A stretch of DNA of 64,000 nt from Proteromonas lacertae (lineage: Eukaryota > Sar > Bigyra > Opalinata > Proteromonadidae): contig NGBS01000002.1 in the NCBI GenBank assembly GCA_002245135.1, positions 186,001 to 250,000 on the forward strand, read 5' to 3'. Each line of letters opens with the position of its first letter. The first letter of the stretch is position 1. Shown piece by piece: positions 18,823-54,200 of this stretch. The notes below the pieces were generated by a model, which searched no databases, had not been told where the DNA came from, and was given only the letters and a program-made list of their open reading frames with translations. The translations under genes were made by a program, and so were the position numbers.

Positions 18823-21800
18823 TTATTTTTCATAAGAAGAACAAATCTCACAAGTCCACTTCTCAGGAATAGCTTCAGTCTCTAAGAAACCAGCACATGT
18901 AGGATGTATCATAACACCACAATGGTTAGAACAAGGTATCAACAATGTAGGATTCTTCTTCACACCTTCAGCAGCTATTCTGTGACAGAATGTACATTTA
19001 GTTAATTTCTTCTCAGGAACATAATCAGCAGGTTTCTCCCATTGTGATTTACCAGTTGTAGTATCATAATAATATGTTCGTTTCTTATTATCATCATACA
19101 TTTCTTTCCATTTATTCTTTGTTATAATTACACCACTTGGAACACCTTCTGGTCCTGTTGTTGGTACTTCTGGAACATTCTCTACATATTTATTCAATGT
19201 CTTATCATGATCATATTTAGCTTTATTCTCTATTCTCTTCATATGTTCTTCTAATGTAAAACCGAATTTGTGAGCTAATGTTCTCTTGATTTCTAATTCC
19301 TCTACAGTGCTCATTGGAGCAAAAACGATATTATAATTTGAATAAACAGTTATGTTGAATAAACCTTCATCATCTAAATTGTAAGTACAAACTAACAAAG
19401 CATAACAACGTGGAGATAATGTTGCTCTTATTTCCACTTCTTGTTTAAAATCAGGATTACCAGTTGAAGATACTACATTCATATAATTCAATTCATCAAC
19501 TCTAAACTCTTCATTCTTATAATTTGAATCTTTGACAATATAAGCTGCAATTGGTAATGGTTTTTCTATAATATGTCCACTTCTATCACATTGTTGTATT
19601 TTAATAATCACATCAGTATCTCTATCAATCTTTAATAAATAAGTTGGAACTTTTCTTAAATCACATAATAAGTTATGTCTGCCAGGTAAACCAACAGCTG
19701 TTCCATTTTGTTTATTCCATCTTCCATCTAATACTTTCTTTTTCCATATATCTTCACTTATATAATAACATACAAATAATGATCTAAATACTTGACAGAA
19801 ATCATTGAATGACATCCAGAAGGTAGTTTCATCAACATCATATGGATCGTAATGTAACTTATGTCTCATTCTGGTAGTCCATAACTTTGAAGCTCTTCCC
19901 CAGTCTCCTTTCCATATCATATCACCATTACAATAATCTGGTGGATTTCTTAACTTTATTAATTTATGTCCATCTACTGCTTTTACATCCAATATTCCAT
20001 AAGCTGAACCCCATACTAATCCACTATCTAATACCTCTTTATCAGCTGCAGCTTGTGTAACAGTACCTGCACCTAGTAAGAATCCATTGTGTTTAAATTT
20101 CAATAAGTTAGACCATAATAAAGATCGATTATTACCTCTAGCAGCTCTTGCTAAATGGATTTCTTCAGCTGGGAAACCTGTTAACATATATAATGCTTGA
20201 TGAACATAACCAACTTCTAAACTTGCATAAGCACCATAATATTTAGCAAATGCTTTTTCTATTAAAGGAACCCAAAGTTTATCAAAGTCACTGCAATAGG
20301 CCATTGCAGCTCCAGCACATTTATTTGCATGGAATGTTTTATCTAAGATAGGGAAGTAATCATCTACTAACAATTGATGCCAAACTGCATTCTTATATAA
20401 TTTGATCAAATAAGCACCAGTTTTAGAAGTGTGTTTATTATATATAATATTTCTAATCATTGGATTAATTCTTTTAATTACATTATCTTTATTAGTAGCA
20501 GCTGCTAATATTGATAATGAACTTAATAACCATCCATCACTTATCACTCCTTGGAATATATCACTTGGATCAGTTCCACTATGACCATATAACTCTACAG
20601 ATGGATTAATAGAATTGGCAACTTCCCAACCAACGATTGGCTCAGCGGTTGTACATAATACACCAATAGAATCATTGTTATGAGGGAAATCAGGATCTTG
20701 GAATTGTATTTCATCTGTTTCAGCATCTGGTTTACAACATCTACCTCTCTTTATTTCACTCAATGTGCAATCGGCATTGTAAGTCAATTCATCTTTACCT
20801 TTTGGTATTTTAATATTTCTCTTTAATCTTTCTTTTCTTCTATCTTCTAACATCTTATTATGTACTTTCAACATATAAGTATCTCTTGGTTTCCAATATT
20901 TCTCTAATTCTACAGCTGCATCATCCATACACTTATCTTCATCATCACTTATCTTTTCTTTTAATATTTCTTCTCTATCAAATTGATCTTTCAACGCAAA
21001 GAATTTTTCCTTTTGTTCTGGTGTTAATTGACTCAACCATGTTGCTATAATAGTTGTATCTAATGTAGCTGAACTTCCTTCTCTAAATACTTCTTTGGGT
21101 GGAACAATATCATTTGCCATTAATCTGAATTTATTCTCTTTCATAAATTTAGTGAATAATAATCCATCTCTCTTCATTCTACCATGAGCTGAAACTAACA
21201 ATAACAATGTAAACTCAATTAAGGCTCTATATTCTTCAGAATACTCAACAGCTAAACAATTATCAGCAATTACTAAGTCTCTTAAGGTTTCTCTAATATT
21301 TAATTCAAATTCATTAGTAATTTTATCATATTTATTTCTACTACAACAATTCCTTATACATGGCCAAATACCTAATGGTGATATAAATCCATAAGGTCCT
21401 TTACCTTTCAATGAATAATCCAACATATCTTTAAATCTCCATAAACCATTGGATTTTCTAATAATTTCTTCTTTTTCTTCTTCTATTTCTTCACCATGAT
21501 CATCTATATGTTTTTCATGAACTACATTTACTTTGATATATAAATCAATCATATAATCTCTCACTTGTTTAGCTGCATCAAATGCACATTGATATTTCCT
21601 TCTATCATATGCTGTTTTTAATCCTGCATTGATTAGTTCAGGTGTTAATTCTTCTTCACGAATATATTCATCTTTTTCATCTTCTAAATAGATTGGTATT
21701 CTTTCTCGTCGTTTTCTATAATCTCTTATTGTCTTATCAATTGCTTGTTTAATCTCTCTCAATTCACAATATGCTGCAGCATCACCTAATCTTATAGGAA

Positions 21801-24800
21801 TTGTGCTTAAACAATAAGCCAATATCCATTCACCAATTAATATAAACACACACATAAAACATACTCCTACACCTATTGGATGTACAAACGCTATTAATAT
21901 AAAACCCCATGCAACTGCTAGACTCATCACTGATATCATATCAATACCACATCTATTCTCATCTTTAATAGTATTTGTTTTAGCATCATATGAATAGATT
22001 GGGAATAAATATGGACTAAAATATAATGGACTATCTTCATTTCTATTACTAACACATATGAAGAAATCAATTACAAAGAATGCTGCAATAATGATCAATG
22101 ATACTGATAAGAAATAGACTAAAGAGACACTAAATATAAGTGAAACTAATAACAGAATAACTATGATTGTAACACCACCTCTCATTAGTTTATGTATCAT
22201 CTTTGGAGCTATATAATAATCATGTATCACCCATTGTCTTATCATATAATAAGCTAATATCAATACAGCTAATACTATTAACACAGATAAGGCTACTAAA
22301 TAATCAGCCCAGAAGTATAATGGAATATGGCAAATAATTAATATTACTAAATTCACCCACATATATGTTAGAGTTTTCTTACATAATTTCCATTCATCAT
22401 CCCACCATTTAATAATAGAACCACATAATAATATGAAGGATGGATATACGAATAACATCATTAATATTAATACGAAATTATCATTAGACATATCCCAATC
22501 TAATATAGCCCAACCACTGTATACTTCAGTTATTAAGAATAAAAACACTGTTAATATAATCATATTTTGAACATATATTGACATTTCATATTTATGGAAA
22601 TATCTTACTATTGGTTCTATTGTTGTTATTAATGTTAATAAAATCAATGCAATTAACATTCCAATCCAATGTGGTTTAATGAATATTGATAAGAACATTC
22701 CCATTAATAAGATTAATAATACATCGATGATTAATAATGCTATGACTATATAATCTTGCATTGTTAAACAACCAGCCCAGAATGCTTCCCATGATGATAA
22801 TGTTGCTGGATCAATAACTACATGTTGTTCTTCTTCTTCCTTTGGCTTTTCATCTTTTGGTTTCTTACCTTCTTCCATTTCTATTTCTTTCATTGCCTTC
22901 TTTCTAGCTTTCTCTTCTTCCTTTTGTCTTTTCTTTTCTTCTTTAGCTATTTGCTTGGCTGTATAACCTTCCACACCAAATTGTTCTCTTTCATCATACA
23001 TTATATTACCATTCTTATCAACTATACTCTTTGCATATGGTTTTCCTTCTTTTACTTCAGTTGGTTTATCATCTTTTGTTTGTTGTGGAACAGTTGCACC
23101 AGCTGTTATTGAACTACCTTGAATTGGAGGAGCTTCAAATCCTGTTGGTGTTTTCTTTGGTTTAGAAGCAGATGGTTGTGATGAAAGACCAGCTGCTCCA
23201 GGCATTGGTTGATGTTTTAAGAAACTATTAGCGGGTTTAGCAAATCCAGAATCAGGAGTAGCACCATTTCTAACACGGAAGGATGATGTAGCACCAATTG
23301 GAGCAGCAGTACCAGCTGGTTGAATAAATGAACCAGCTCTACCAGCACCTATTGTACTTGGAGTTGCCATTACAAATGATCCACCTCTTGCACTACCTAT
23401 TGATCTGCCTGGACCTGAAGCTGTTGGTACACCTCCTGCTCCTGGACCACCAATTGCACCTCCTACAAATGAACCTCCAACGAATGAACCACTTACCATT
23501 GAACCACCTGCATTGAATGTTGGTGCGATAAATGAACCAGTCTTTGTACCAACGGCTGCTGCTACTTGACTAATACCAGCTGCATTAGCTGCAGGAGTCA
23601 TAATGAATGAACCACCAGTTGTTGGATCAGCGACAAAGTATGAACTACCTCTTGATTTTGGAACACCACTTGCAATAAATGATGAAGTTCTAACAGGTAA
23701 TGGAGCACCAGTTACACCTTTACCAGGTCTTGAACCAGCAAATGCAGGTTTAGCTATTACTACACTATTATCACCACCACCAACCAATGAATTACTTGGA
23801 ATTGTAACACCTTTCTTTGGTTTCAAATTAGCTTGAGGAATAGCATTAGCTGGAATAACGAATGAACCAGATCTTACACCAATTGGAGCAGCCATACCAC
23901 CACCTCCACCTGTTGGTACAATGAATGAACCAGTCCTTCTTGCAGAAAATGAACCTGTTGATTTGGGAATAACAACTGAACCAGTTCCTTGTGGAATAGC
24001 ACCTCCAATGAAAGAACCACCACCCATACCACTCATACCAGGAGCTAATATTGATCCTTGACTAGGCATACCACCTAAGAATGAACTTTGACGAGGAGGA
24101 CCTCCCATTCCACTACCCATTGCTAATGGTGGAGCTACATTCCTTCTTGAACCAGATGTAGCACCTCTACTTCTCATGAAACTATTACCTTTACCAGCTA
24201 CAAATGAACCTGATCTTGCACCTAGTGGATTTCCCAATGGAGCACTTAATCCTGTTATACTGGATGGTGGTTGTTGTGATACTACTGGAGGACCTAAGGA
24301 TGATTGTGATGGTATAGTGAAACTACCTGATGGACCTGGTAGAGTTTCACCTGGAGCGACTTCTTGCATTAAATCTACATCAGTTGTACCATAATAATAT
24401 AAATTATAATATTCTTCACTGTTATAATATTGTTGTTCAATATCGATTTCTTCTTCTTTTTCTTTCTTTTCTGTACGTTTTTCTGGATCTTCAGTCCAAC
24501 TATAATCATTCTTTTGATATAACATAAATACACATATTGATATTGTAATAATTAATGGGTAAGAATATAAAGATAATCAACACAAATGGATTATCTGTCA
24601 TTCCATAGTTAATAAAACCACCTAAAATAAACAATATTTCTGTAATAATAGCTAAAACCCAAGGCAATCTTACTGGCTTTAAATACGAAATAATGATCAT
24701 TCTTTAAATTCCTATCACTTTCTAATCTAAATGCACGATATGTTGAGAATACTAAACTGAATAATATTCCACACATTAATGCTAATACTGCATAATCATA

Positions 24801-28916: not shown

Positions 28917-30144
28917 TTAAATTACATATTTTAGATAAAGGATAGCATATAACAAGCTAATTTGAAACTGTTTTGAGTTGATAACCATATTAGTAACTTC
29001 AAATCGACGATATATTGGATAATTATGTGAATGATATGTTGAAATAAACAATTTAGGATGTTTTTCAAATCCATAATTCTCATTAAATCCATAATCATAA
29101 GTAAAAGGATTTAAACCTTCAATAGGAGAAAATAGTGGAATAAAATGATAGTTTAATGAATAACTTAAATAAAAATAATCAGCTGTAACAAATGCAGACA
29201 TTGTGCTAATTATTACAGCTTTCGATGAACTCATCCATAGAATATTTACAGTATTTGCTCCAAATGGTGCAATTATGATATTTGCATATAATATTGACTT
29301 AATTTGATCAATTGGTTTAATTCCATCAAAATGGATTATAGTATAGTTATAACCACTTTCTTCAATTATTTTAGTTAAATCATTTAAGTTTAATATCATC
29401 CTATATCTATTTTTATTCTTCCTAATAATTAACACAATTCTTACTGATTCTATTAAAACTTTTGGTTGGATTTTCAAAATTTTATATCCATCTTCTCTGA
29501 ATCTATTTCTTTGAAATAATGATCTAAATATTCCTAGCCAACCTCCATTTTGTGTTTTGAACATTAAATTCAAACTATTGAAACATATGTATCTATTATT
29601 GCTTTTTCTCATCAATTTTGCCAAATTTTGTTGATATATTATTTCATATTGTTTATAATTGTTTAAGATTATTCTTAACATCATATTATTATAGGGGATC
29701 GTTAGTCGTGGATCAAAATCTGCCATAATCAAATGCTCTAATGGTGGATATCTACCATCATCTTGAATATTATACAAAAACATTGTATCAAGAAAATGAC
29801 CAATGTTACTATGAAACCATAATGAAGTGAACCAAGCATTTTTAATTTCAATAGAATCTTCAGGAAATTCATCTATATAGAAATCAATGTTACTAAATAG
29901 TCCAAACATGTAACTACTCATTTTTTGTTTATATGAATTATATACATCAATATTTGGCACATAAATGTGTAAAATAGATTATTTTTTATCCAATTTCTTT
30001 TTTATACACACGTTATTAGCAGTAAACCAATAATTCCCTGTTTCGAGTAATAGTTTATCTTGAAAAACAAATGAAGAATATTCGCAAATTGTAATCTGAA
30101 TAAATTGAGTAACAAATAGAAAGCATATATTCTTTTCAATCATT
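28917..30144 (-). pseudogene. GT61-family glycosyltransferase-like gene with an in-frame stop
   Basis: A single minus-strand frame runs from ATG 30144 to the stop at 28917-28919, broken only by TAA at 29979-29981. The N-terminal 55 codons look like a signal or anchor segment (ICFLFVTQFIQITIC) and end with FTANNVCI, like the NVC motif at the start of GT61/DUF563 domains. After the stop the frame continues for about 350 codons with GT61 features: a WFHSNIGH block, LIMADFDPR, a VRIVLIIRKNKNR strand, GIKPIDQIKSILYANIIIAP and FGANTVNILWM (family HGAGLTN). GT61 enzymes transfer xylose, GlcNAc or arabinose in the secretory pathway. No GT-AG intron removes the stop. Alternatives are a pseudogene, readthrough, translation from a downstream start without signal peptide, or a sequencing error. 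A GT61-like frame is well supported; its intactness is not. Confidence 0.65.
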
Positions 30145-30223
30145 TTAAATAAAAAGCTTGATTCTCATTTGACACAAACACAAAATTTAAAAATAACATA
30201 TATATATATAATTTATCCATAAA

Positions 30224-33200
30224 TTATGGCATTTTACTTCTTTTCCTTCTACCTATTGTTGATGTTTTCCTATTATTTACCAGAGTTGAACTTCTTTTTA
30301 GATGTGGATTTACACTCATATTTGTTGTATTAACGCTTGCCATTGAAATTGATGTTTTACTTCCTTCTGCAACACTTAGTTCTGAAGAATGAGTCAAACT
30401 ATCTGTATCTTCCAGAGCTTCATCGCTAGTAAATCTATATACAAACTTTGGAATGAATTGCAAACCAATAATAAATAAAATCATTAGCTGATATCCTATT
30501 CCTCTAAATAAAATTAAAGAATCAGGAGATGTTTCTATAACAAATTCTAAAGCAAATAAAACAAGTGAGAAGAAGAGTAAAATAATGAATTAAGAAAATA
30601 TTATATCAATAGATTCATTTAAAAAAAGATATATTCTACAATAAATGTTACTAATAACATATAAGAATCTAAAAACTCATTTGCTCTTCTTCTTCCTTGA
30701 ATAGATTGAATTAATCCATAAAATATATTAATTCCTATAAGTACTGCAATAACAATTCTATGGAAATAATAAAATAAATACAAATAATATATACACGAAT
30801 ATTTCATTAGTAGAACATTCTTCATAGTATGAATCTGACAAGAATGTTGTTTCACTATTATCCAATTGCAATGTATATTCTGTATGAGATATTGTTTGAT
30901 ATAATATAGAAACAAATAATGGGAGCAAATAATTTAGAGCAAATAGTTTCACAGCATATAAAACATGAATATGAATCTTACGAACTTCTCTTCTTTTTGA
31001 TTTTCTAATTTTCCTTGCTTTTACTGTGAGTAATGAAGTAACAAGTGAATATGATAAAACAACTAAATTGACTCTTAAATAACATACTAATGAACTATTA
31101 TTCTCTGGAGCATATATTGTTGTTATAACAGAACCACTAGCAATCAACAAAGTTAATATTATAAAGTAATGATAAGGAGTTGAGAAGCATTTTATTACTC
31201 TTTTATTTTTATATTTCATTGTAAATACTAATGCTGCTAAAAGTGCTAAGCAATTAATTGCACAGAATATTAATGCAATATATTGAAGAGCTACTGTTCT
31301 CTTTAAGATTATAGTATCTTTTGTATTGAAATAATCTGATGGAGTACCATCAGGAAATGGAACTGGTTCATAGGTTTTAACTTCACCAATCTTAGGATTA
31401 ACTTGAACAAAGCCAGTAGTGATAATTTCCATTAAAAATGCTGATCTTTTTACATAATTATTCTCATCAACTGTAATAAGGCCAGAAGGTGCTAAGTATT
31501 GTAAACCAGGTAAAGTTAATCGTATATAATCTGTTGAAGGCCAATTATCTTTGTCGTGAGAGTTTGAATCTTTTTCAGATATATAATTCTTAGCAATATT
31601 AACAGCTTCTTTGATTAACTGCATTGCTATATAAGTATTTTCATAGTAAGGAGTTATATAGAATTGAGAATCTAATTTATCTTTTGCATTGTTAATAAAT
31701 GCATAATTTGATGATGATTCAATTTCCTCTTGATATGATATTGGGATATAACTTCCTAGTGAATGTACTGATATATCTGATGATCCTAATAAATAATGAT
31801 CGAAGATAAAATTGACAAAAAAGAATCTTTTCAATCTCAAATTATATTTTATATAATACTTCATACAAGTGATGGAATTTGATAATTTCAATGCAATAAA
31901 TACTATGATTTAAATTATTATATAAAAGAATATACTAATCAAATTATTTATCTTACCATATATTGATTCAAATTTCTTCATTACAGTGTCACATTCTCTT
32001 CCATCATTGATTATTTTTTCACCTAATAATGCTGTGTTTGATATACTTTTTATACCTGTCACGATATTTTGATAATATTCAGCTGTAAAAATGATTAAGG
32101 ATAATCAATTAATAATATAAAAACAATCAAAAAAAGATATTCATTCTCTTTATCAATTAATATGAAATAATTGGTGAAATATTGTTTTGTATAATCTATT
32201 GATACTTGTACCATTTGCGATAATGTTGATCCAACAGTGAATGTATATTTGGAGAAGAAATTTCCATTACTATTACCTACATACATAAATATCATCCTTT
32301 TCTCATTTGTAACTTTACTAACAATATCTCTACATCCACTTGTTATACAACCAACTATTGCTTTGACTGATGGATCATTACATAATTCTATTGTTGTATT
32401 TTCTATCAATTCATTTGGTACTATTTTCACTATTGCATAAACTTCATAACCATTTATTCCTCCTGTATTATCTAATTGATTCACTGTATCGTCAAAACAT
32501 AACCATACATTATATTTTTCTTGATATGGCTCATAATCTTTTTCTACAATCAATGCAATTCGAATTATTTTCTCAATCTTATACACACCATTATGATTTG
32601 TAAAGTCACATGATTTTCCACTATTCTCTTTTATCCATCTTGAAAACGTATAAGGATAAACTAAACCAGATGGTGATGATACTGGTGTTAATACTTTATT
32701 CCTCATTTCAGTTATATATACTCTTCTTGACAAGTAATTGTTTGTTTCTAATTGAATATAACCAGTAGCAACACTATGTTTCTTTCCTGTCATACCTTTT
32801 CTTATTGATAATGGTTCAAAACTTCCACTTTCTCTTACTCCAGTTGCCCATAATTTAACTGCAGTATAGGCTGCTTCAACAATGGCAGTAACAACTACAG
32901 AATTCTTATATTCTTCTTGGAATTTATCATAAAACATTTTTAATTTCTGATTACTTCTTAATGTAGATTTGCCTAATACTGAGAACCAACTTGATATGAA
33001 TCTATCTTCTTCAAAATATTGTTCATTTCCTGTCAATATCAGCTCATCAACTAACATATGATAATAGATATATGTCGGAGGTTTTAAGCCAATTGAATAC
33101 GAGTCTTGTGCCAATTTCAACGAATCGTAAGAATAAACAATATCCAATAGAATTGCACCATTAGGATAGTCTACTAATATTTTCTGCAATGATTCTATAG

Positions 33201-36200
33201 AACTATAAAGATAAGCATCATATCGAACTTGAATTTCTTTTAATAATTCAGCAATAATATCTTTAGCAACAATACTAAATGATGAATTTGAATATACTAT
33301 TGCATATGCATTCGTTTGTTCCATTGAAAAAGTTGCTTTTACTGCCGATATTAATTGATTAAACACAGTTTGTGTTGTAATTCCAAAACTACTACAACTT
33401 TCACCTATTGCAATTCCTGGATAGAATAACAATTTCTTTGCTTTTGAGAAATAAGGTTCCATCACTTTATACTCATCATCCCAACTTCCACCAAATACAG
33501 TATTTAATCCTGTTAAAGCAGCTGTTTCTTGACTTAAAGCAGGCAATTTTTCTAAATCTGATGCTGTATCAATAACGTCCAATTCTATTTTATTTCCAGA
33601 AAGACCTCCTTCGCTGTTTATTTCTTTTATTGCCAATTGAATTGCACTTAATATTCCTCTGCCTCTTTCTTCATCTTCTCCTGTTAATGAAGTAACCACA
33701 GCAACTTTATGACTTGGATATTTATATTTTGCTCCATATTTTGAATTAGTTAAATCACATATATAAACTCCACTATTGATTAATTCTTTCCAAACTGATG
33801 GCTCACCTAAATCATCTGTTGATACTACTGATAATCTACCATCTGAATTACCTGAATATGATCCAATATATGTTACTCTTTTTGCAACATTGTTACTTGC
33901 TATTGTGAAAATTCCTGATGGTGACTTATACTCTGTATTGAAATATTCCAAATCTAATTTGCTAATTGGTATATCTTTATGATCATTAACTACTTTTTGC
34001 CAGAATAATACTGCAGTATAAAATGCCTCATGATAGCTATTTATAGGTATTCCTGTTGGTAAACCCACTTCCATTGCTTCTTTAAATGCTTTGTTTTCTT
34101 TTGTATCAATTGTATTAAAGTATTTATTTATTGAAAAGAATGGTTCAACTCCATATATTGCTGCATTTTCTGATGTTGAATATGAATAGAAATGATAATC
34201 TGAATCTACTGGTCTTAACTCTTTTAATGCAGCAGATATAAGAACATGCAACCTTACTGTACCAAAGAAGAATATAGAAGCATTACTTGTTAATCGTGCA
34301 ATCATATTCTTTATTGCAGACACTACGTTATCTGTTGTTTCATCTAATGTTATTGAGTATAATACATCTCCATATAAATAATTTATATATCTTTCAGAAT
34401 AAGTTGTAAATTTCAAACTTGTTGCATCAGATGTCCCAATTATTCCAAAAGATCTACGACCTAAATTCAAAGCTCTTTTAATAATAAATTCAACAGCTGT
34501 AGCATCAACACCAATATGGATGATATTCCTTTCACATGATTCTCCTCCATATACTCCAATGTGGAATATTTTAACTTCCTTTTCAATAGCTAATGCATTT
34601 ATCATATCTAAACAAATTGAACTTGCTGTTGTAAATATTGCACTGTAGTTTCCTTTTGTTAATAGATTATTCAATTGAGTATGACAATTTGTCGAATCTG
34701 ACTCATCATCAACTGTAGTGATTTCTACTCTATTTCCTCTGATAGCTTCATTATTATTTATCTCTTGTATTACTAAACTAAATATATCATTTATTCCTTT
34801 ATAATCTAAACTATAAGCACCTGACTCAGATGTTAAAAGAATGACTTTAATAACATCCACCATAACAGTTGCATCACTATTATCTCCTAGAACTAAAGAT
34901 GTATCACATAATTTTCCAAAATTTCCTGGTAAATGCCAATTAAATGATTCTGGCTCAACCTCTAAATACTTTCTAACAATTACAGCATTTGAACCTTCAT
35001 ACTTATATACAAAAATATCTCTATAAAGATAATTACTTTTAGCAAATCTTACATATTTTTCCATAGTTAATGTTTTATTGAATAACAGAGGCTTTATTAT
35101 ATTCATATTCAACGATCCTGCCTGTAACACACACTCATATACCTTCTCAAATAGTAAAACAGTAGATACACTTTCTTCAATAATATCTTCCATTCCTGTA
35201 TATTTATGAAGCAGATTATGAACATTTTTTATAATACTATTCTCAGAATCTGGTGCATCAATACCACCAATAAAATAGTAAGGTATTGTCAAGTCTGGTA
35301 ATTCTTCTCTAATTGTTATTGGATTGACTCTAACTTGAATTATATCATATATATCTCTATTTGGTTGTATAATCTCAATATTCTCCAACAAACTAACCAA
35401 TGGTATAACGTTTAAAAAACTAACAATTAAACCTCCTCTACCTAATTTAGATAAAATTGTTCTTACAGTATTTAATGATATTCTGTCATAATCACCTATA
35501 CTAAGTGTATATGCCATTGTAAATCTAGAATCCATTGTCATCATAAATACACCTCCAAAATATCCCCATGTATCCATCTTTGCATTACTGTATAATAATA
35601 CAACATTAAATCTATTCTCTAAACTCATCATAAATGTCATTGTTGAATCTATAATTTGGTTTGGAATTGGACCTGAAAATAAGATATTTGGATGGCATAA
35701 TTCAGCTTCAAATTTCTTTGGATATAATAACAACTTCCTTTCCTCTGTTAATAATATTTTCTGAATTGTATTTAAACAGAAATGTGTAGTACAACCTATA
35801 TACAATAAATTATTCTCATATTTCATTGAATCTTTAAGTCTTTGATCTAATGTTAAATCATTATCATTATAAAACAGAAATACAATTGACAATGGAACAC
35901 CAAATATACCACCTTTTTCATTTACATCTTCAATAGCAGCTACACAAGAAGATAGAATATAAATGAAATAAGGTTCATCTTTTAATGATAATATTACTGT
36001 TACATTCATTGCCAATTTTGGCAATTTATCTCCAATTCCATTCTTATTGTTTCCTGACCAATCACATGTATATATATCATATGACATATATCTTGTTGAA
36101 TATGGATCAGGTGAATAATCTGATGTACTATCAAATTTTACATCAAATTTATAACCCTCATCTGAGTTTACAACTTCAGCAATATATATTGGTATTGATA

Positions 36201-39200
36201 AATGGTGATTTTTAGTGGATGAAACCATACCAAATGAAGTATCAAAACTAATATCATTTAAAGTTGCTATGACATTTTCAACAGCAATGGATTTCTTTGC
36301 TTCTATTGCTTGTCTCCACAATAATACAGCTGATAATGCATAAAACTGATTTACAGATCTTGAAGTTATATAAGGATAATAAGCATCATAATACCTATTA
36401 ATTACAAATATTATTGAACTAGTATATTCAATTTTATCTGTCAGCAATATATGTCCTTCAAAATAAACAGCATATTCAGTATTAACAACCATAGCATCAA
36501 TCCCTAATATATAGAATGTATATTGTGGAGCTTTCAATCCAGACAAATATGCTAATTTATAAAATTCATATCTATTTGGACCATCTATTAAGGTGATTAC
36601 TATTCCATCACCTAATAAATGAAGTAATGTACTTTCTACAATTCCTGTCATATCTGTTGTATCAAATGGGATTTTCAATTTCTGATAGATTGATACATCC
36701 AAATCATTCAAATCAGCTTCAATTATCTTTGCTACTGTACTATAATAGTAATTATTTGTATAAACAATGATAATTCTCCTTTTTGTCCTTATATGATCTT
36801 CTTGAATATAATATCTTATGTATTTCTAGATAATAATAATATAATACTCATAATTAAAATACTCTTGCTGTAAATGGAACTCCAACATATGAAATACATT
36901 CTTCACATTCTAAACCTTCATAATCATGAGCATAAAATAATAGTATTTTGTTTTTTCTTAAGTATGGTATTGCTGCTTTTCTCATCTCAGAAATATAAAA
37001 TAAAGGAAATTATAATAAGAGACGAAGAAAAAAAAAGATATTTACTTAATCCGAACATAAAACTAACACCATTTTCTACTAATATAGAAGTAGCATTACC
37101 TATTCTAGATGGATCTGACTGAATATCAATCGTAATCGGGTGAATATATAATCCTCTAATACCGTTATATTCTATATTACATAAATCAATGGCCATTAAA
37201 TATGTTGATAATAAACTAATATCTTGTAAAGAATAAGAACCAGATAGAGAAACTAATAATCCAACCTTAATAAGAGATCTTTCATATCTCTCAGAAAATG
37301 ATTCTTTCCAATTACATGTATATATTCTACTTTCTCTATAGGTTCTTTTCCATATTTGAGAATCAAATGTGGCTTTTATTGTATATGTAACAAAACGAAG
37401 TAGACCATCACTATCTTTTTTATACATACTAATAGGTCTTGATAAAACGTTGGTTCTATCCATTTTCAAATAACCAAATGGACTTTCTTCATCAATACTA
37501 TATACATTTTCAAATATATAGGATTGCTTAACAGAATCATCTGTTTTTAACAAAACTGATAACATATATAAAGATAATAGAACATTTATTTCATCTCCTC
37601 TAATTACATAACTCTGTGTCAAAATACTATTAATCTGCTCTTGAATATTTGATTCAGTAACTAATTGAGATGTAACAACGTATTGATTTACAGTATAACT
37701 TTTATCTATCAATCCAAAAGTATAATCATCAAAACATATTACAGTATAAGGTTTTGATAAATTAAATGCACTTAATCTGTCAATTATATACTGCTTAAAC
37801 AATTTAAAGAATGTTTTTAATGATTCACCACTTAATGTTGTAACTATAAAAGTATTTGATGATCCATAGTAAGTAATGTTCTCAAGGAATGAAATTACAT
37901 CATCTTTTAGATTTGCTTCATTTACTTTCATCAATCCAGATACTTCAAAATTAATTACATCAAATGAACTTATTATAATGTCATTATATACTTCCATTGA
38001 AGGATTTGAATCATAAATAAAAGCTATTTGTTTTCCAAATGCATATAACATGTAATTGATTGAATATGATATATATTGATCTGGTGATGGAGTAATCAAA
38101 TATCTAATAGAAATATGATGATAAATATTATATTATAAATACGAGTTCTGTTTACATATTCCTCCTGTATTTACTCCTGTATAAAATAGTACAGTTTTCT
38201 TCAATACTTCATCCTCTGCAAATGTATTTATAGTATTTGTATCACATCCACCAATAAAAATCAATATGCCAAAATCTTCTATTCCTTTTTTTATTTTTGT
38301 TAGCTTAACATTATTTGTTGGACAATCGTACAAATGAGGAACCTATTATATTTACATAATATGATATTTAACATACAACAAATCTTTCATTGAAATGATA
38401 ATTTCCTCTAAGTTCATTCAAATACCAATTGATTAGTATCACATTCTGTAAAGCCTTTGTAGATGTTATATCATCAAATATAAATCCGAAATGAAGAGGA
38501 ATATTTCTACCATCACTACTACCACCGTTCTGTTGATAAAAATCACATACTCTATCATAATTATCAGTAGTCTATATATATATAAAATGAATTATTTATA
38601 CAGTCCAATCATATCCATTTGAATATAATGGAGATGGATATGAAACATATAATTCTTCATTATAATTACCATTATTGTCATCGCTAATTAATCTAGTTAG
38701 ATAAAAACTTTTAGAGAAATATCTTCCATCTGTTACTTTCATATTATTACCTTCTGGAGTATCAATATTCATATCTTTGAAATGTAATAATACAGTTGAA
38801 GCTTTAAGCATTTTCTTTGATTGAATAGCATCTCTAGTTTTGATAAGAATTTCATAAAATGATATGAAATCTTCTTCTAATAGTAATTCTGTATCTCCAA
38901 GATAAGTCTCTATATTCTTAATCATATTCATATTTGCTTCATTTTCTAAATCTTTATAATACGAAGTCAATATCAAATGATCACTGAAATTTTGAAATAA
39001 TTCATCACCTCTATTGTATAATAAATTATTAACATATCTTCTGGATAAGGTAAAATGTATATTCTCAGCATTTCCTGTTCTACAACTAACATTATTAACA
39101 AATTTCACTGTTGTATCTCCCATTATGAAGAAATTCTTCTGCTTCGTTGTACAATCCCTAAAATCATTATCAAATGATTCAGCTCCTGATTCTATCTCTA

Positions 39201-42200
39201 TAAATTCACATTTTTTAGTAGTATAACTATTAGCAAGAAATTTCTTTGCAGATACAATCATATGTTGAGAATATGAATCATTTGTATAATATATAACACA
39301 TTTATCTGATTCTAATATTAGGTAGTTCAGTGCTGGATATAAACTATTATCAATAGTTCTAGAATAGTATATCAATTAAGAAATCAATAATTGTTATATA
39401 TAACATTAAAAAAAGATATAACTATAGTGTTTGCTTCACACACATCTCCATCGAATGGATAGAATAGAAATAATATTTTATCATACACTGTTATTATATC
39501 ATTAAGTATCTTTCTATTTTCTCTTCTATTTAATAATATATATAATGTAAAAAATTATACGATATAACTCCTGTAAATGCAAAAACAAGTTCATCTTTTG
39601 CTAACGCATTCAATTCTTTTTTGATTTCAGAAAGTGACTTTTCATATTTGGGGAAGATTGGCTTTACTATTCCATTTAATAAACCACCTTGAATATTTAA
39701 AAAATCACATGCTGCAATTGCTACTTCAGCCAAATTAGAAAATATCTTTTGATATTCATGTTTATAAGGTAGTAATACAACTAGTTTATAGACATTGTAC
39801 GATGAATGTATGTCATTATTAAACACTATAATAATTATATTAGAAGATAATTATATATATATATATACCATAATGAGAATAATCACAAATCTGATTTGTA
39901 TTTTCAATCATCACATAAGTTCTAAATGATGCATAAGTTTTAGAACTTAACGAAAACAACCTCACATAGTTCTTTTTTGTTCCCTATATAATAATTAGAT
40001 AAAATGATATATACCATTACTAAATGAAATCCATTAATTGCATAACCTGACTCAGTTATACCAAATGGACCATTAGTAGTATTAATATAAGTTCCAACTA
40101 TTTGCCTATTTAATTAATATATATTTAACTGTAATAATACTTTTGAATATATTCATATTTTGTTGATAAAGCATTCAACATCCACTATTATAGATAATAA
40201 TAATATTTTATAAATACTTCTTTAAAGAGATATATTGCATTATATGCTGTAATCTGATCATTACTAATTGCACCTTCATTATCAGTATAATATTTCTTTA
40301 TATTCTCTTTTAATTCATTAAGATTTCCTTGATTTTCATCAACATAGTATGAAAAAGTGTAGAATTTATATGGATATTCATAACCTGTATCTAAAAACAA
40401 ATTTTGATTAATATCGGGGATTATAATTCGATACATTGAATTCATATCTTGAATATTAATAGCTTTAACAACCAAATCTAAATACTCTTCTTCTAAACAC
40501 AATATTCCATATCCTACAGCTTCTATATCTATATCATTGCTCTCTTCATCAGAAGCTAAAATAGAATCAAGTTCTTTTCCATCTAATTTAATAATACAAA
40601 TAAATAAATAATATATACAAGGATATAACGTAGATCTAAACACTGATATAGCTGTCATTGCTTCAGCTCTTGAACATTCAATCATTTTATATTCCACTAT
40701 ATTTGTAATACCATTCTCTATTAATTTCTCCTTCCATTGTTTCGCTGTAATTGTTCCATATTCTAATGTACTTGATATTATGACAATTGGATTTGTATTT
40801 TCTCTCAAAAGAGTTGTAAATGCTTTTGATATTTTAGCAGTAGTTGAAATTGCTGTAGTAACCAATTTTTCTTTACATTCAGCACTAGATGCGTATTTCA
40901 AAGCTATTACTTGAACATTTGTTAGCTTTTGAATTGATAACTGATTTAATAATTCATTTCTATCTTCCATTCTTAACGTGGTTAAAATATAATTAAATTC
41001 GCCTGTATCATAGAATCTTTTCAACTATATTATAAGTAAAATAAAGTGAAATTATATACTGTTTTAACTGTTTGAGTAATATTCATATTACCATCCATCA
41101 ACATTGGCAATATTCTAACTCCAAAATTATTAAACTACAATATATTATAATGAATTAATATATACATTAATTAATTCTCTCATAGCTTGAATTACTGCAT
41201 CAACAATATACATATCTTTACCTGAATAAGGCCCAGTAATATACACTATTAGAGCAATATCATATTGTTGAATATCTTTCACTTTTGGACTTTGGAATGA
41301 ACAAGTAATCTTTCTTGGCCTTCCATAATAGAAATTGTAAGTAAATAATTCATCTCTTTGAATAGTAACATCAGTTATTAAATTTCCACTTCCATCATGA
41401 TTAGTTGATAAATATACATCAGAAGTAAGCGTATTTATATGCGATACAAATATTGATACTTTATCATTGCTGCTTGATATATTTACTTCAATAGTGTTAT
41501 CATACAAAACATAAAACAAATTTGGTACAAAATCACTCAATGTCTTTTTATAACCATATAAAAATACTTCAAACATTATATGCAACTTATAAAAGACTAA
41601 ATCTTCTAAATCAGGGGTGGGTTTATACAAAACATTATAATAACTAAGATATTCAGCATAATATGTTACTATTATATCACTTGTATAATAATTATAATTA
41701 TATAATTCCATAACTTCTATATTTAAAGGTATTTCATAATAATCATTTACATCTATAAGGTCTTGTAGAATTGATTCGGTTGTGGTTGGATCTGCTAATA
41801 TAACAAGGTTAATCTCTTCGTCATATTCATTAAAAGTGTTGATTAAAATATCACCAGTTCTTTGAGGTATTGCATTTTCACCAGGTTGAAGAGGAGGTAA
41901 TTCAACTAAAGTTCCACCAATTATAGGAAGGAATTCTTTTAAATAATCTACATATACAGAATATGGATGATTTTCTTGATATAGTACAGCTATGAATTTT
42001 GATTCTTTAACCATATACATTGTATCTATGTAAAAAATTAATCATAAAGGGTGTATACATCTTTCAGCATATCTTCTAAACGATCCATAATACATGATAT
42101 TACTATGACAAGCATCAAATAACTGCGGTGTTGTAGTCCACAGTATCATTTTTGATTCTATCAGTTTCTCATTGATTTTGGTGAAATTATCGAAGATTAT

Positions 42201-42485
42201 ATACGTAAATATATGCGTAACTTTATTATTCTTAAAATACTGTAGAGCTTGATCAAAGTTAACCCCATTCTTCTGACAAGTTGTATTAAATGCTACTAAC
42301 GAGTTTTCCGACAACTTAACGTCTATATTACCGAGAAAGTTCTTTATATCTACATCTGGATTAGGTGCTCCTGTATTATCAATCTCGTTCAAAAATCCTA
42401 TATTTGTCGTAGCAATAACAACTACATATAAAATTTCGATACAAAACAAAACTTTGTCAAACCTAAAACTATATCTATTAACCAT
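30224..42485 (-). CDS. Giant class C GPCR-like receptor with nine tandem AmiC/UrtA-type periplasmic-binding domains
   Basis: About 19 exons and roughly 3800 residues. ATG 42485 opens a hydrophobic leader, then nine copies of a type I periplasmic-binding fold, each ~390 residues. Copies end in a Cys-Asp/Asn-rich linker (for example IYTCNW, IYTCDW, KLCDTS, YICDLT, KSCDFT). The best-preserved copy (~33710-32590) reads like bacterial amide/urea-binding proteins: VAVVTSLTGEDEERGRGIL, INSEGGLSGNKIELDVID, FGGSWDDEYK, LLFYPG..IGESCSS, then SVATGYIQLETNNYLSRRV near its end. A 7TM_3-type domain follows at ~31320-30440, with CFSTPYHYFIILTLLIASGS and YLRVNLVVLSYSLVTSLLTV like metabotropic/GABA-B receptors, and a Ser/Thr/Arg-rich tail. 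Every exon junction from 42053 to 30577 keeps frame, so this is one gene. At least three introns are AT-AC type. It is probably a plasma-membrane sensor; ligand and G-protein coupling are unknown. Confidence 0.85.
30577..30632 (-). other. AT-AC (U12-type) intron in receptor 7TM region
   Basis: The intron starts ATATCTTTTTTTAAATG and ends with TTTTCTTAATTCATTATTTTAC. It contains the same TTTCTTAATT branch-like element as the intron at 39367-39419. It joins TFIVEF to FFSLVLFALEFVIE in frame, completing a late transmembrane helix and connecting to the last exon. At 56 nt it is longer than the neighbouring GT-AG introns. Confidence 0.72.
32085..32140 (-). other. AT-AC (U12-type) intron in receptor gene
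   Basis: The intron starts ATATCTTTTTTTG and ends TTATCCTTAATCATTTTTAC. TCCTTAATC is close to the U12 branch consensus and lies 10 nt before the terminal AC. Splicing joins LIDKENE to AEYYQNIVTGIKS in phase 2 and keeps the ninth binding domain open. The GT-AG choice in the same gap (GTTTTTATA...ACAG) breaks the frame. Confidence 0.75.
36981..37041 (-). other. Possible AT-AG U12-type intron in receptor gene
   Basis: The gap between two exons again begins ATATCTTTTTTTTTC and contains TTTCCTTTAT about 20 nt before its end, but the 3' end in frame is GATGAG. A GT-AG alternative from an internal GTCTCT site to the same acceptor also keeps frame (adding YLFFSS). The U12 assignment here is therefore only suggestive. 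Confidence 0.4.
39367..39419 (-). other. AT-AC (U12-type) intron in receptor gene
   Basis: Sense-strand intron begins ATATCTTTTTTTAATG and ends TTTCTTAATTGATATAC. The 5' site resembles the U12 consensus ATATCCTTT, and TTTCTTAATT resembles the U12 branch site TTCCTTAAC, placed 9 nt before the AC end. Removal joins CEANTIV to YSRTIDNSLYPALNYL in frame. The result matches the family pattern GEECSNVFYTGAAPNQ..PA..YL. The only nearby GT-AG alternative (GTTATATC...CTAG) gives an immediate stop. Confidence 0.75.
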
Positions 42486-42911: not shown

Positions 42912-44529
42912 ATGTTCACAGATTTAATAATTCCAGGTATAAATCCTTTCATTTTATTTTATTACATAATATTTAATAAAATATCACATTATATATCACC
43001 CTAGGGTTAATAAATTCATTTTGTGGTTTGGCTTATGGTTATAACAACGGTATTGTAAGTGGATTAAAAGTACAAATTATAAAATACACATATCTTCCAA
43101 ACGAACGTAATGAGGATTTATTATCTGTTTATTATGTATATATTTATTGATTTAAAAAATCATTTAGGGATTATATACATCAGCTACATTGTTTGGAATG
43201 GTAGTGGGAAGTACCTTTGGTATGTGGTTTGCAAACCGATTTGGTAGAAAGAAAAGTTTACTTATGTGTGGAATTATATTATTTATACTCCCAATACTGT
43301 TAGCAATAATTGAGAATTATTGGGCGGTTTTTGTAATAAGAATTATTTTGGGTTTTGCAATTGGTTTATCAACTTGTGTTGGTCCAATGTATGTGACAGA
43401 AACTGTTGAAACTAAGTATCGTGGAAGGTTAGGTAGTATGTATCCATTAATATTAATCTTTGGAATGACATTAGCGGTATTTTTATGAATTTATTTTTAT
43501 TGTTAATAGTATTTAGCTAATTATGCATTTGCTGAAGGAGAATACAATGAAAATATCCCATTTAAGAAATGGCAATGGTCAATACAATACGCAATAGGTG
43601 CAATAATTGGATTAGGTTTGTTAATAACATTAATATGGACAAAAGAAAGTGAAGTATGGTTAAACTCAAGAAAGCTAGAAAAAGAAGCAAAGAATGAAGT
43701 AAAAACTAATATAACAGTTAATTCAATCAATATGAAATTGACTTTAAAACAAAAAATAGGTTGGTACAGTTTAGCTGTTATGTTAGGAGTATTAGCTCAA
43801 TTCTGTGGAGCAAATGCAGTTGTATTTTATAGTACAAGCATATTGAATAAAGCTGGAATGTCAAATCCTTTATTATCTGTATTTTTAATCATTGGATGTT
43901 GGAATTTCTTATGTGTATGTTTAGAGATGTATATAGTTGGTAAATGCAAAAGAAGAACAATGATGGTATGTGGTACATTTGGTTTAACAATTGGTAATAT
44001 GTTATTAGGAATAAGTTTTGAAACTGATGTTACAGCTTTAGCTATTATTGGATTAATATTATATTTGATCACTTATGAAAATAGTATTGGGTCTTTATTC
44101 TATTTATTATCAAGTGAAATATTTCCAAGGGAAATAAGCTCATCTGGTTTAAGTATTGCTGTTAGTACATCAAATGTTGGTAATATATTAGTTTCATTTT
44201 TATTCCCAGTAGTTGAAAAGGAAATTGAATCTGGACCTTGTTTCTTTATTTTTACTGGATTTACTTTTCTTTGTACCATTGGTTGCTATTTCTTCTTACC
44301 TGAAAGCAGTGGTGATATTATGGAATTGAAATCAGCTCCTGTTTCTCCTACATCAGTACTTTCACCTGCATCTCCTATAACAGAGGTTGAAATGACTGAA
44401 AAAGTAGAAAAAGCCGAAAATTCAGAACAAATTAATCCAGTTACACCAGTTGGATCTTCTGATGCTGTTTCTAAAGAAGAAGAAATTGGACAAGCTTCTA
44501 AAACTGAGAAAATAGTAAAAGAGAATTAA
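42912..44529 (+). CDS. MFS sugar transporter (hexose-transporter type)
   Basis: Four exons. The best start is ATG 42912 (MFTDLIIPG), joined by an intron ending near 43006 to a helix 1 segment with GYNNGIVSG, the counterpart of GYDTGVISG. Further introns lie at about 43136-43168 and 43478-43511. Family signatures: WFANRFGRKKSLLMCG (loop 2-3), RIILGFAIGLSTCVGPMYVT, YRGRLGSMYPL, and the PESSGDIMELK C-terminal motif (usual PET/PESxG). Twelve helices fit. The cytoplasmic tail is rich in Glu, Pro and Ser. The usual helix-7 QxxGxNxxxYY is present as QFCGANAVVFYST. Substrate is probably a hexose by family, not proven. The closest relative in the window is the partial gene at 62796-64000. The N-terminal exon is the least certain part. 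Confidence 0.82.
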
Positions 44530-44706: not shown

Positions 44707-45779
44707 ATGAAGATAGTTTTACTATTATATATATGCTTTATAATAACACAGGCTAGTGTCTGTCCACATTTATGCAGTGGACATGGCTCATGTATGAAAA
44801 ATGGAATTTGCCTGTGTTTTCCAGGTTGGCTAGAAGGCGATTGCTCACAACGTATATTTTTAAGTGTTATAAAATAATAGGATCTTGCCCATATGATCAT
44901 CCATACGTTGATCCGAAATATCAAATAAAAGACGAAGATAGATTGTTTTTAGAATGTAGTGGCCAAGGTGAATGCGATAGACGAACCGGATTATGTGAAT
45001 GTTATGAAGGTTATGAAGGAACAGCATGTCAGAGACAAAGTTGTCCAAATGACTGTAGTAATCATGGTGTATGTACTTCTGTCCATTTAATGAAAATTGA
45101 TAATAGTCACCATGAAGCAATGTCCTATGTAAGTGATTATAACAATTTGAATTATAATTATTGGGATATTGATCAAAGTTTTGCTTGTGTATGTGATAAA
45201 GAATATACTGGATATGACTGTAGCATGCGAAAATGCCCAATTGGATATATACCTACTAGTGATTGTGATACTCCTTCTCAATCTACACAAATATTAGAAT
45301 TTTCAAATTATTCAGATAATACAAAAGGAAGTACAGTTTATGTAGAATATATTGATAGTTTTGATAGAATTTGGTATACAGATCCAATCACAATAGATGA
45401 TGTAGAATCATGGAATTATGAATTAAATAGATTACCTGCTGGTGTAATAGATGTTGAAAATATAAATTGGAAAGCTGATGAAAAGAAATTAGAAATATTA
45501 TATGGCAAATATCAAACTGGAAGACAACCTGATTTTAAAATAATAACAAAAGAAATATTAAATGAACCACCTTATTCTCCTGCTAGTAAAGAAGCACCAG
45601 GATATCATGGTATGGTTTTAAGTTCAGTAACATACAGTGGAGATGTAAAATATAGGTCTGATGGTATTCCTGGATTAGTATGTAGTGGTAATGGTGTATG
45701 TGATGGTGAGAGTGGAATATGTGAGTGTTTCACAGGGTATTATGGTTTAGCTTGTACAGAACAATCCGAATTAATATAA
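44707..45779 (+). CDS. Secreted EGF-repeat protein
   Basis: Two exons. ATG 44707 gives a signal peptide (MKIVLLLYICFIITQA) followed at once by a first EGF-like repeat (CPHLCSGHGSCMKNGICLC). A 29-nt intron ends at 44880. Exon 2 continues with CSGQGECDRRTGLCECYEGY, CPNDCSNHGVC and a final CSGNGVCDGESGICECFTGY. Between repeats 3 and 4 lies a ~130-residue non-EGF segment with many Tyr and Asp. No transmembrane helix or GPI-type hydrophobic C-terminus is visible, so it is probably secreted or wall-associated. Proteins with this tenascin-like EGF pattern are common in protists and algae, with no fixed function. A TCAAGCC motif at 44654-44667 precedes the start by 40 bp. Confidence 0.78.
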
Positions 45780-51251: not shown

Positions 51252-54200
51252 CTATATATAAATAGTTTTTCTCTTGTTCATATTCACCACTGTTGGAGCT
51301 TTTCTTAATTTCTTTCTATTACTGTTATTATTCTTGATATTAATATTATTATTGTTTTCATCAGCATATGGAATATAGTATTTTATATCATATCTATTCT
51401 TTTTCCTTGAACTTAACCTATTTGCCTTTCCACATAAATATACAATAAATATAATCGAAACTACTGTTAATATGGAGAAAAAAGTAAACAAAAATGTTGA
51501 TAATTGTTTGTAAATGGAATCATAAAAGGATGGATTAAATTCAATTGTGTTTGTGAGGATATAATCATCAGTAGAACCTATATATTTATATGGAAATGAA
51601 ATATCATATAATATTGATAAAATTATCTCTTTAATAACATAATAATCTTTTTCTTTACATGTAAATTGAAATGACACTTTAGTTAAAATACTATTGTTAT
51701 TCTGTTCAGTTCCTATAAATGATGTTTCATTCAATAAATAATGACTGATGTCCAATAAATCAAAGAAATTAATTCTTCCTTTATATTTATCAGAAAAGAA
51801 ATATGAATCAATTGATGTTACAAATGAAACTACTACTACAGTTTCAAATGCATAATATGGCTCATGTTTGACTAAAAAACACTTTTCAGTAAAAGATGTT
51901 TCATCCCATTCTGGTATTCCTGTATAATTCACTTCATTTATTATACACATTTCAGATTTATAACCAAAATATCCATTCTCACATTGACGATAGGCTATTT
52001 CATCAACTAAAGTGGAATAAAAATATTCATTCTCATAACAAGAATGTGCTAATATTTCCAAGCAAACTTCTGTATCAATACACAGTACTTCATTACATCC
52101 TATTACTGTATAACAATTCAAATCCATTATTTCAGCTACTCTTCCATCTATTATACCATTATTTAAATTAAATGTTAAATTATGTGGAAGTGTCTTTGAA
52201 ATTGTCCAGTTTTTGATTGTGTTGTAATAAAGTGGGAAATTTCTTGGAGCATCAATTCCATATTCATAGATATAATACTCATAATTATATCTCAACGTAA
52301 ACGGTGGGTTTTTTATATTTATTGTCTTTTCTATATGTGGATTATAAAGATTTGGATCTATTTGAAATTCTGTTACATTTAATATATTTTTGAAAGATAA
52401 TTTTACATTAAAAGGATAATAAATATCATCATCTCCAACTACTATATACGGAAGTTCTTTTATATCAAATATAAACGTAGAATTTCCATCATCTATACAA
52501 TAATCAATTGAATTTGAACTATCATATATCATCTCATAGAAATACTGTTTATATTCATTTGAACTGTCCAATATTGTTGTACTTAATATGATATCATTAT
52601 AAAGATTAGATATTTCAATATTTAATGTTATTCCATGTCTGCATTCATCAATAACAAATGATACATTCTCTTTAATTTCACCCATTAAATTACTAGCTGT
52701 TACTGTGAAATTATTATAATCAAGTTGATATTTGGGAATTCCTAATAATTCACATTTGTTACCAAAATACATTCCAATTGGTAAAGATGGTGTTATATTA
52801 CAATGTTGAATAAAACCATAATTATAATCAATTTTATCTACTGATACATTACTATATGTTTCAAATATAAAGAATGAGGGTTTATTTGAATCTGTTCTAT
52901 TTAGATATAGTAATAAATAAGGTTCTGAAATCGTATGTAATTGTAAATGTAAATTAAAAGTGATATTATTATTATTATTATCACTATGTGAAATAGTAAA
53001 TTCAATGAAATGGTTATTTATAAGTTCTGTAACATTTTGATTAATTGGTATAACTTTTCCATATATAATTCCACAATCAGAATTAAAATTCAATCCTATT
53101 GGCAATTCTTGATCTATAGAATAATTACCATTATAACGCCTATTTGGCTTTAACACAATACTCTGATTGTATAACAAAGTTAAATACTCATATTCATATA
53201 GTAACAAATCTTTGTAATTGGCTTTTATAAAATAACTATCACAATCAATATATCCATTAAAAATACATTTTATTTTTTCCAATTGATTAATATGAGATAA
53301 AGTTATTACTATTTTAACATAATAATACTTTACTGAATTATCTAAATGTATTGAAAAATCTGTTGTTGAATGATTGGCTACATATGAATGTGATGGATTA
53401 ATATAAAATGAAAATGATTCAAATTCTCCATATAACCTTAATGAATATATAAAATATTCATTTATTAATAATGTATAATACTCTATCACTATTGGTGTAT
53501 CTATATATATCGGATTATCTATACTTAATACATTAGTACTATTCTTTATCAACTCTTTATTAAAGCTCTTTACAATTATATTATCATCATTAAAATCATA
53601 ATAACACCAATATAATGAATGATCTTTCTTATAAATTATCTTTGTACTGCTTAAGTGGGATTGTTTCTTTTAATTGATATATGATTGTTATATTAGTTGT
53701 TGATATAATATTATTATTGTCTAATCCACACACTTCAATCACATAATTCATTTTTTCATTCTCAACATTGTTGAATATCAATACACCTTCAATTACACCA
53801 TTATCTTTATTAAAACTCAAACCGTTTGGTAATTCTGGAAATATCTTAAAACACTTTATATATCCTAATCCTAGGATTATTGGTTGAATATTAATATATG
53901 TATTGTTCAGCAACATAACATGGTTATTATTTGGATATTTAATCATAATAGATAATAAATTAGTGGAAATAAATGTATCGTTTAATAATTGATAATTGCT
54001 ATCATCATTATTTTCATCATCTTCTTCTATTCTGTAATATAACTTTAACAATTCATGGTCATTTGTATTTCCAACATAATCAATATGAATGTAAACATTT
54101 CCTTTTGGTAAAAGTATTGATTTTTCCATACTATTATAAGTACATCCTTCATATTCCATAAATGCACAATCCAATGTGTTGATATACATCCTTGCTGAGT

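Follow-up and report, generated by a model that had tools for sequence, protein, structure and literature searches.

How many ligand-binding modules can be carried by one chain of a class C G-protein-coupled receptor (GPCR)? Class C receptors are described as having a single such module per chain. The question is raised by a gene in a 64,000-nucleotide stretch of Proteromonas lacertae DNA (contig NGBS01000002.1, positions 186,001 to 250,000; hereafter the window), in which a first-pass annotation made from the sequence alone had described nine tandem binding domains of bacterial type fused to a class C membrane domain. The observation of a nine-module receptor gene was confirmed, and the interpretation given with it was partly supported. 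The gene, spliced by hand with frame and homology as guides, runs on the minus strand from an ATG at 42485 to a stop codon at 30224, and its 20 exons join into a frame of 3830 codons with zero internal stops. The continuous, splice-compatible gene of the first-pass annotation was thus recovered with both ends exact.

Nine segments, D1 to D9, each of 375-405 amino acids (aa), were defined by cutting at the conserved cysteines, leaving the C-terminal membrane part. A family hidden Markov model (HMM), trained on domains of the window gene and its paralogs, recognised all nine as Venus flytrap (VFT) modules (E 2.1e-17 to 2.5e-75). Pfam served as an independent test, and its Peripla_BP_5 model exceeded the cut-off in six of the nine (D3, D5, D6, D7, D8 and D9), in agreement with the proposed nine repeats of the type I periplasmic-binding fold. 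Structure comparison identified the fold of D8 as a VFT. In the spliced protein the Pfam model 7tm_3, named with Peripla_BP_5 in the first-pass annotation as a check of its claim, scored 64 bits against a cut-off of 33.5, confirming the seven-transmembrane (7TM) domain. The features of the gene are:

30224..42485 (-): whole gene, nine-VFT class C receptor, 20 exons, 3830 aa; spliced open frame
41301..42485 (-): VFT D1, aa 1-384; family HMM E 2.1e-17, no match in the Pfam scan of the segment
39885..41300 (-): VFT D2, aa 385-789; family HMM E 2.3e-41, Peripla_BP_5 18.5 bits (E 1.2e-3), under the cut-off
38545..39884 (-): VFT D3, aa 790-1182; Peripla_BP_5 42.1 bits, family HMM E 2.1e-52
37314..38544 (-): VFT D4, aa 1183-1568; Peripla_BP_5 25.3 bits (E 1e-5), just under the cut-off of 27; family HMM E 2.2e-54
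36064..37313 (-): VFT D5, aa 1569-1952, best kept pocket across the family; Peripla_BP_5 123.9 bits
34906..36063 (-): VFT D6, aa 1953-2338; Peripla_BP_5 44 bits
33757..34905 (-): VFT D7, aa 2339-2721; Peripla_BP_5 83.6 bits
32608..33756 (-): VFT D8, aa 2722-3104
31373..32607 (-): VFT D9, aa 3105-3479, membrane-proximal; Peripla_BP_5 57.9 bits
30431..31297 (-): class C 7TM domain; 7tm_3 64 bits
31082-31084 (-): Cys of the third transmembrane helix (TM3), topology by comparison with class C
30815-30817 (-): Cys of the second extracellular loop (ECL2), topology by comparison with class C
30446-30451 (-): Pro-Lys of TM7, topology by comparison with class C
30224..30430 (-): cytoplasmic Ser/Thr/Arg-rich tail and stop codon; translation

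D1 was not recognised over model positions 1-64 of the family HMM, and a signal peptide may lie at its N-terminus, where hydropathy showed a hydrophobic stretch (aa 7-30). The copies were strongly diverged, as had been noted: mutual BLAST matches with E<0.01 were obtained only among D5, D6, D7 and D8 and between D9 and D7 (E 0.002). A Cys-Asp linker was said to close each repeat, which holds for six of the eight junctions between VFTs; one of the others is Cys-Ser and one Cys-Asn, and D9 ends unlike the other eight. The C-terminal Cys and a pocket-loop Cys were both present in 72 of 72 rows with letters at both columns, which leaves no variation by which their pairing in a disulfide might be tested.

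Downstream of D9, the cysteine columns C466 and C559 were invariant in 13 aligned family members and present in the window gene, and were assigned to TM3 and ECL2 by comparison. The TM7 motif of the window gene, FIPKF, contains the Pro-Lys pair; in 13 other members the Lys was invariant and Pro was not the majority letter. The TM3/ECL2 cysteines and the Pro-Lys of TM7 are among the class C features listed in the available part of PMC3727952. No Pfam match to the cysteine-rich domain NCD3G was detected between D9 and TM1, and since NCD3G is missing also from GABA-B receptors, its absence speaks against the mGlu/CaSR/T1R branch only. The profile built from the last VFT and the 7TM domain of 13 paralogs matched urea-binding proteins with its first half, and GABA-B subunits 2 and 1, then mGlu7 and CaSR, with its second. 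An N-terminal VFT, by which class C is recognised, is present nine-fold, and the Ser/Thr/Arg tail was seen in the translation as described. The genome also contained 12 matches to G-alpha genes, with fragments and duplicates counted in, the best at 354.6 bits.

A paralog family with an ordered array

The first-pass annotation missed that the gene is one of a large family. In the genome (G000, 50.2 Mb in 1181 contigs) 132 matches to 7tm_3 were detected, 123 of them over the cut-off; the surrounding open frame measured 1500 aa or more for 44 of the 132 and 2000 aa or more for 36. Some genes are counted twice, through two of their exons, and some matches are near-identical copies; the genes therefore number fewer than 132. 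All 112 scored candidates for Peripla_BP_5, out of 683 first-look candidates, matched that model. Compared with PDB entries, the ribosomal protein RPL3 of this genome was closest to those of plants and Tetrahymena (about 416 bits), followed by fungi (about 400) and animals (about 390), no more than a hint of a non-opisthokont host.

Twenty paralog loci were fetched, selected for long open reading frames (ORFs), most of which begin in mid-domain. In every one of the 20, a single ORF held six to eight VFT matches, of which the first was as a rule partial and in two loci weak (L017, E 0.0025; L021, E 0.0011). The ORF continued into the 7TM domain, where the 7tm_3 match was complete in 19 and in the remaining one (L014) covered positions 1-178 of 251. 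When the upstream flank was included for three of the 20, nine domains were found at C356, nine at C713 (the first weak, in two pieces with E 0.006 and 0.0004) and eight firm domains plus a weak one (E 0.086) at C158, where the flank ends and leaves no room further upstream. At the eight best-scoring 7tm_3 loci, unselected for length and scanned on both strands, a VFT was directly upstream in all eight; three of these overlap the 20 fetched loci, and some are near-identical to each other. The nearest paralogs of the window gene were 37-41% identical over most of D6-D8, and the 37% identical one is located on the same contig.

Outside this genome, three proteins (P0001-P0003) of 2360-2450 aa showed 32-39% identity to the paralog L016; each has six VFT matches and a 7tm_3 label, and P0002 and P0003 stop within the 7TM domain. 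At least six VFT matches, and up to nine, were thus present in every member examined (20 paralogs, the window gene and the three database proteins). A search with the VFT+7TM profile found no close relative beyond P0001-P0003 and one weak match among 7999 scored candidates, a gecko V2R-like receptor; the tool needs shared exact words, and this is a weak negative. The VFT profile found 10 proteins, several of them annotated as bacterial urea-binding proteins.

Domain positions were counted from the membrane, so that position 1 is D9, 3 is D7, 4 is D6 and 5 is D5. A tree was made of 149 domains and UrtA from 161 rows, after 11 rows with less than 60% of the columns had been dropped. On the 149 domains the label of position required 12 changes and the label of gene 139; with UrtA as a separate label, position required 13, the least possible being 9 and the shuffled value 100.7. 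A mixture-model tree of seven genes and 47 domains gave 12 changes for position (shuffled 33.1) and 37 for gene, and six genes grouped by position at positions 1-6 on branches with values of 80-97 in the SH-like approximate likelihood ratio test (SH-aLRT). P0003 paired with L016 at positions 1, 2, 4 and 5, and at position 3 grouped with L016 and the window gene. Long branches were joined in both trees and were flagged, and single deep groupings are not claimed; the order test covers positions 1-7 and not the outermost two. The sorting of domains by position rather than by gene, together with the pairing of P0003 with L016, argues that the array is older than the expansion of the family. Judged from these trees, the ordered array predates most genes of the family, and it probably also predates the split of the host from the source of P0003.

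Within the family, L028 looked like a near-copy of L009. The VFTs of L017, L018, L020, L021, L022 and L024 scored mostly lower on the family HMM, and these loci may form a divergent subfamily. By eye, L037 (G000:C132) and L038 (G000:C131) were near-identical copies of a paralog separated by single-base indels, some of which fall within homopolymer runs, a pattern suggestive of long-read errors left uncorrected or of one copy decaying.

Introns with AT-AC ends and the integrity of the gene

The hand-made exon model contains 19 introns of 30-61 nt. Fifteen are GT-AG introns of 30-54 nt, and the remaining four, which are required for the frame to hold, open with ATATCTTTTTTT. Splicing was compatible with the frame, as the first-pass annotation had it, but these four had been overlooked. 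With GT-AG ends throughout, the frame was lost at four junctions; AT-AC (or AT-AG) ends restored both frame and homology. The four introns are:

39367..39419 (-): U12-like AT-AC ends, ATATCTTTTTTT...CTTAATTGATATAC; restores the frame
36981..37041 (-): opens with ATATCTTTTTTT, closes with AG; frame and homology, the 3′ end being the least certain junction
32085..32140 (-): U12-like AT-AC ends; paralog L037 has the same donor at the same site
30577..30632 (-): U12-like AT-AC ends; donor, branch site and ends

The U12-type consensus comprises AT-AC ends, an ATATCYTT donor and a CTTAAY branch site. Three of the four introns carry CTTAAT close to a terminal AC and so possess all the U12 elements; the fourth shares the donor but ends in AG. 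ATATCTTTTTTT occurred four times in 529,218 bases (the window and L009-L031, both strands counted), in each case at an intron of this gene, as a raw count. A looser full U12 pattern gave four matches, three in this gene, against two in each of two controls, and is by itself weak evidence. A U6atac small nuclear RNA (snRNA) was detected at G000:C1066:116605-116719 (81.5 bits against 33), which makes a minor spliceosome likely, and U12-type introns seem to have been retained in this genome. The homologous intron of L037 has the donor and a branch-like site, but its simplest AT-AC ends, judged by eye, shift the frame by one, and a sequence error or use of another intron end may explain this.

The four introns other than GT-AG, and the indels between L037 and L038, which may mean that frame errors are present in the assembly or in some copies, are what could be expected if the locus were a pseudogene or two neighbouring genes wrongly joined. 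Such an origin is nevertheless very unlikely, given 3830 spliced codons without a stop, the identical domain order of the paralogs in one ORF, the single donor common to the odd introns together with the U6atac snRNA, and the recurrence of this donor at the corresponding site of a paralog with 41% identity. The breaks near 36700 and 31900 that had been considered adjoin exon junctions inside D5 and D9, respectively, and both domains lie within the long ORF in the fetched paralogs. An artefact of joined genes was ruled out by the fetched paralogs, which hold most of the array in one ORF, and a gene-fusion artefact is countered also by the VFT directly upstream at the eight best-scoring 7tm_3 loci.

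Binding pockets, proposed mechanism and known receptors

The domains had been likened to the bacterial proteins AmiC and UrtA, and a likeness was found, UrtA being the closer by sequence and by fold, with 15-20% identity. As the nearest known family, UrtA invites the view that the receptor is a sensor of urea or short amides, the ligands first suggested. In the available text of PMC10392092 the urea pocket of UrtA comprises W120, S122, Y141, Q144, E146, Y190, F192, N246 and S274, and mutation of Ser122, Gln144, Tyr190 or Asn246 each reduced or abolished urea binding. At most three of the nine residues were kept in any of the window's nine domains, and at most four in any of the 160 domains of the family, a set that includes partial domains; none of the 160 kept more than one of the main hydrogen-bonding four, Ser122, Gln144, Tyr190 and Asn246. 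The UrtA family model TIGR03407 gave 118.7, 74.7 and 103.8 bits for D5, D7 and D8, the three domains scored, against a cut-off of 492.75. The comparison with the UrtA pocket, which the first-pass annotation had itself proposed, hence showed that the urea pocket is not kept, and sensing of urea or amides is highly improbable.

Across 24 genes, among them L028, the position of D5 resembled a pocket most, with Tyr141 and Glu146 each in 15 of the 24, Asp in place of Gln144 in 14, and Glu or Asp in place of Asn246 in 18. An acidic pocket at D5 would suggest, from these residues, a cationic ligand. With L028 and short rows excluded, the nine pocket columns were compared with random column sets. They were more variable than the random sets at positions 1, 3 and 4 (D9, D7 and D6), leaned to less variable at position 5 (D5; 346 of 5000) and were unremarkable at positions 2, 6 and 7.

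These patterns bear on whether the array is mostly a long stalk or adhesion rod, in which one or two VFTs bind and the rest serve to keep the sensor clear of the cell coat or to contact surfaces or prey. The strong divergence of the domains, the loss of the UrtA pocket, the leaning of the D5 pocket alone to above-average conservation and the extreme length of the chain would suit a stalk. Full modules in fixed order have, however, been kept at 15-20% UrtA identity (positions 1-7 tested), which is more than a stalk would need, and in D6, D7 and D9 the pocket changes more rapidly than other columns do, as expected of shifting ligand sites more than of a rod. We regard the stalk as an unlikely explanation, though less so than the two dismissed above.

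The gene is probably that of a cell-surface chemoreceptor of the class C GPCR type, with a UrtA-like VFT array on a GABA-B-like 7TM domain. Outside the cell the nine VFTs would be strung one after another on short linkers, mostly Cys-Asp, and a further short linker, without a detected NCD3G, would connect D9 to the 7TM bundle. Small ligands would close one or more VFTs, and closure would be relayed via the membrane-proximal VFT to the 7TM domain and then to a heterotrimeric G protein. Different paralogs might detect different ligands; ligand binding would be needed by some VFTs only, and others may be spacers or allosteric modules. It is conceivable, though we hold it only tentatively, that each chain carries nine separately specialised modules in a family of multi-input sensors, one 7TM domain integrating several cues from agonist and allosteric VFTs; equally tentative is the view that such multi-input receptors would be a distinct receptor class.

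Several results weigh against the chemoreceptor interpretation. The six-frame 7tm_3 match of the window was among the weaker ones (38 bits), and the window's 7TM domain alone matched no solved structure at E 0.1. Pfam recognised D1 not at all and D2 weakly. An AlphaFold2 model of D6-D8 reached a predicted local distance difference test (pLDDT) score of only 41 and was not used for the arrangement of the array. In the mixture-model tree the domains of the divergent paralog L021 were not sorted by position, and the pocket test, with nine columns, related sequences and a marked excess at three of seven positions, is suggestive only.

GABA-B type receptors have one VFT per chain. The present receptor resembles them in its 7TM family, in the passage from VFT to 7TM without NCD3G, in the TM3-ECL2 cysteines and in the TM7 Lys, and GABA-B is the closest solved 7TM by profile; it differs in having nine VFTs, which are UrtA-like instead of ANF-like. 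From UrtA and AmiC it differs by the nine-fold repeat fused to a 7TM domain in a eukaryote, and from UrtA also by the pocket and the family score described above. The receptor is placed as a variant within the class C GPCRs and not as UrtA. No receptor of this layout had been known to the first-pass annotation, and no tandem VFT array on a class C receptor was found among the matches listed in the open literature; the available part of PMC12716839 shows single binding modules per chain. Early and anaerobic gut fungi likewise have large class C expansions (78 in Allomyces; 24, 32 and 51 in three gut fungi) with bacterial-type binding domains, but their N-termini reach no more than 1667 and about 1600 residues and contain ANF, type II solute-binding protein (SBP) and other domains, and the available parts of PMC3251606 and PMC5168858 do not mention tandem type I arrays. 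In diatoms, according to the text available of PMC3727952, seven of 16 class C GPCRs have an N-terminal domain of periplasmic-binding protein (PBP) type on the 7TM and are basal to GABA-B; the genes are few and a tandem array is not mentioned there. The trypanosomatid receptor adenylate cyclases, as covered in the accessible part of PMC6027212, have two VFTs on one chain, but a single transmembrane helix and a cyclase instead of a 7TM domain.

Arrays of six to nine VFTs in fixed order break the rule of one module per chain in class C. The family shows the reach of VFT-7TM coupling, UrtA-like bacterial domains being joined to a GABA-B-like 7TM, and makes it testable whether a single GPCR chain reads several ligands simultaneously. 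The V2R chemoreceptors of vertebrates serve as a yardstick of size, and with 132 7tm_3 matches the family may rival them, the gene count being lower.

Neighbouring genes

The other genes of the window include a large protein at 18823-24576 (-) with a calpain protease domain (182.9 bits), a WW domain and, by eye, many hydrophobic stretches, which we take to resemble plant DEK1-type calpains. The large protein encoded at 12913-18084 (-) contains PA14 and a series of He_PIG repeats, and by eye the one at 51252-54726 (-), with similar repeats, may be related to it. The protein encoded at 44757-45779 (+) has EGF and teneurin-like EGF domains, and its gene adjoins one for a sugar transporter at 43168-44529. 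Immediately downstream of the receptor gene, the gene at 28917-30164 (-) has a match to glycosyltransferase family 61 (28917-29978).
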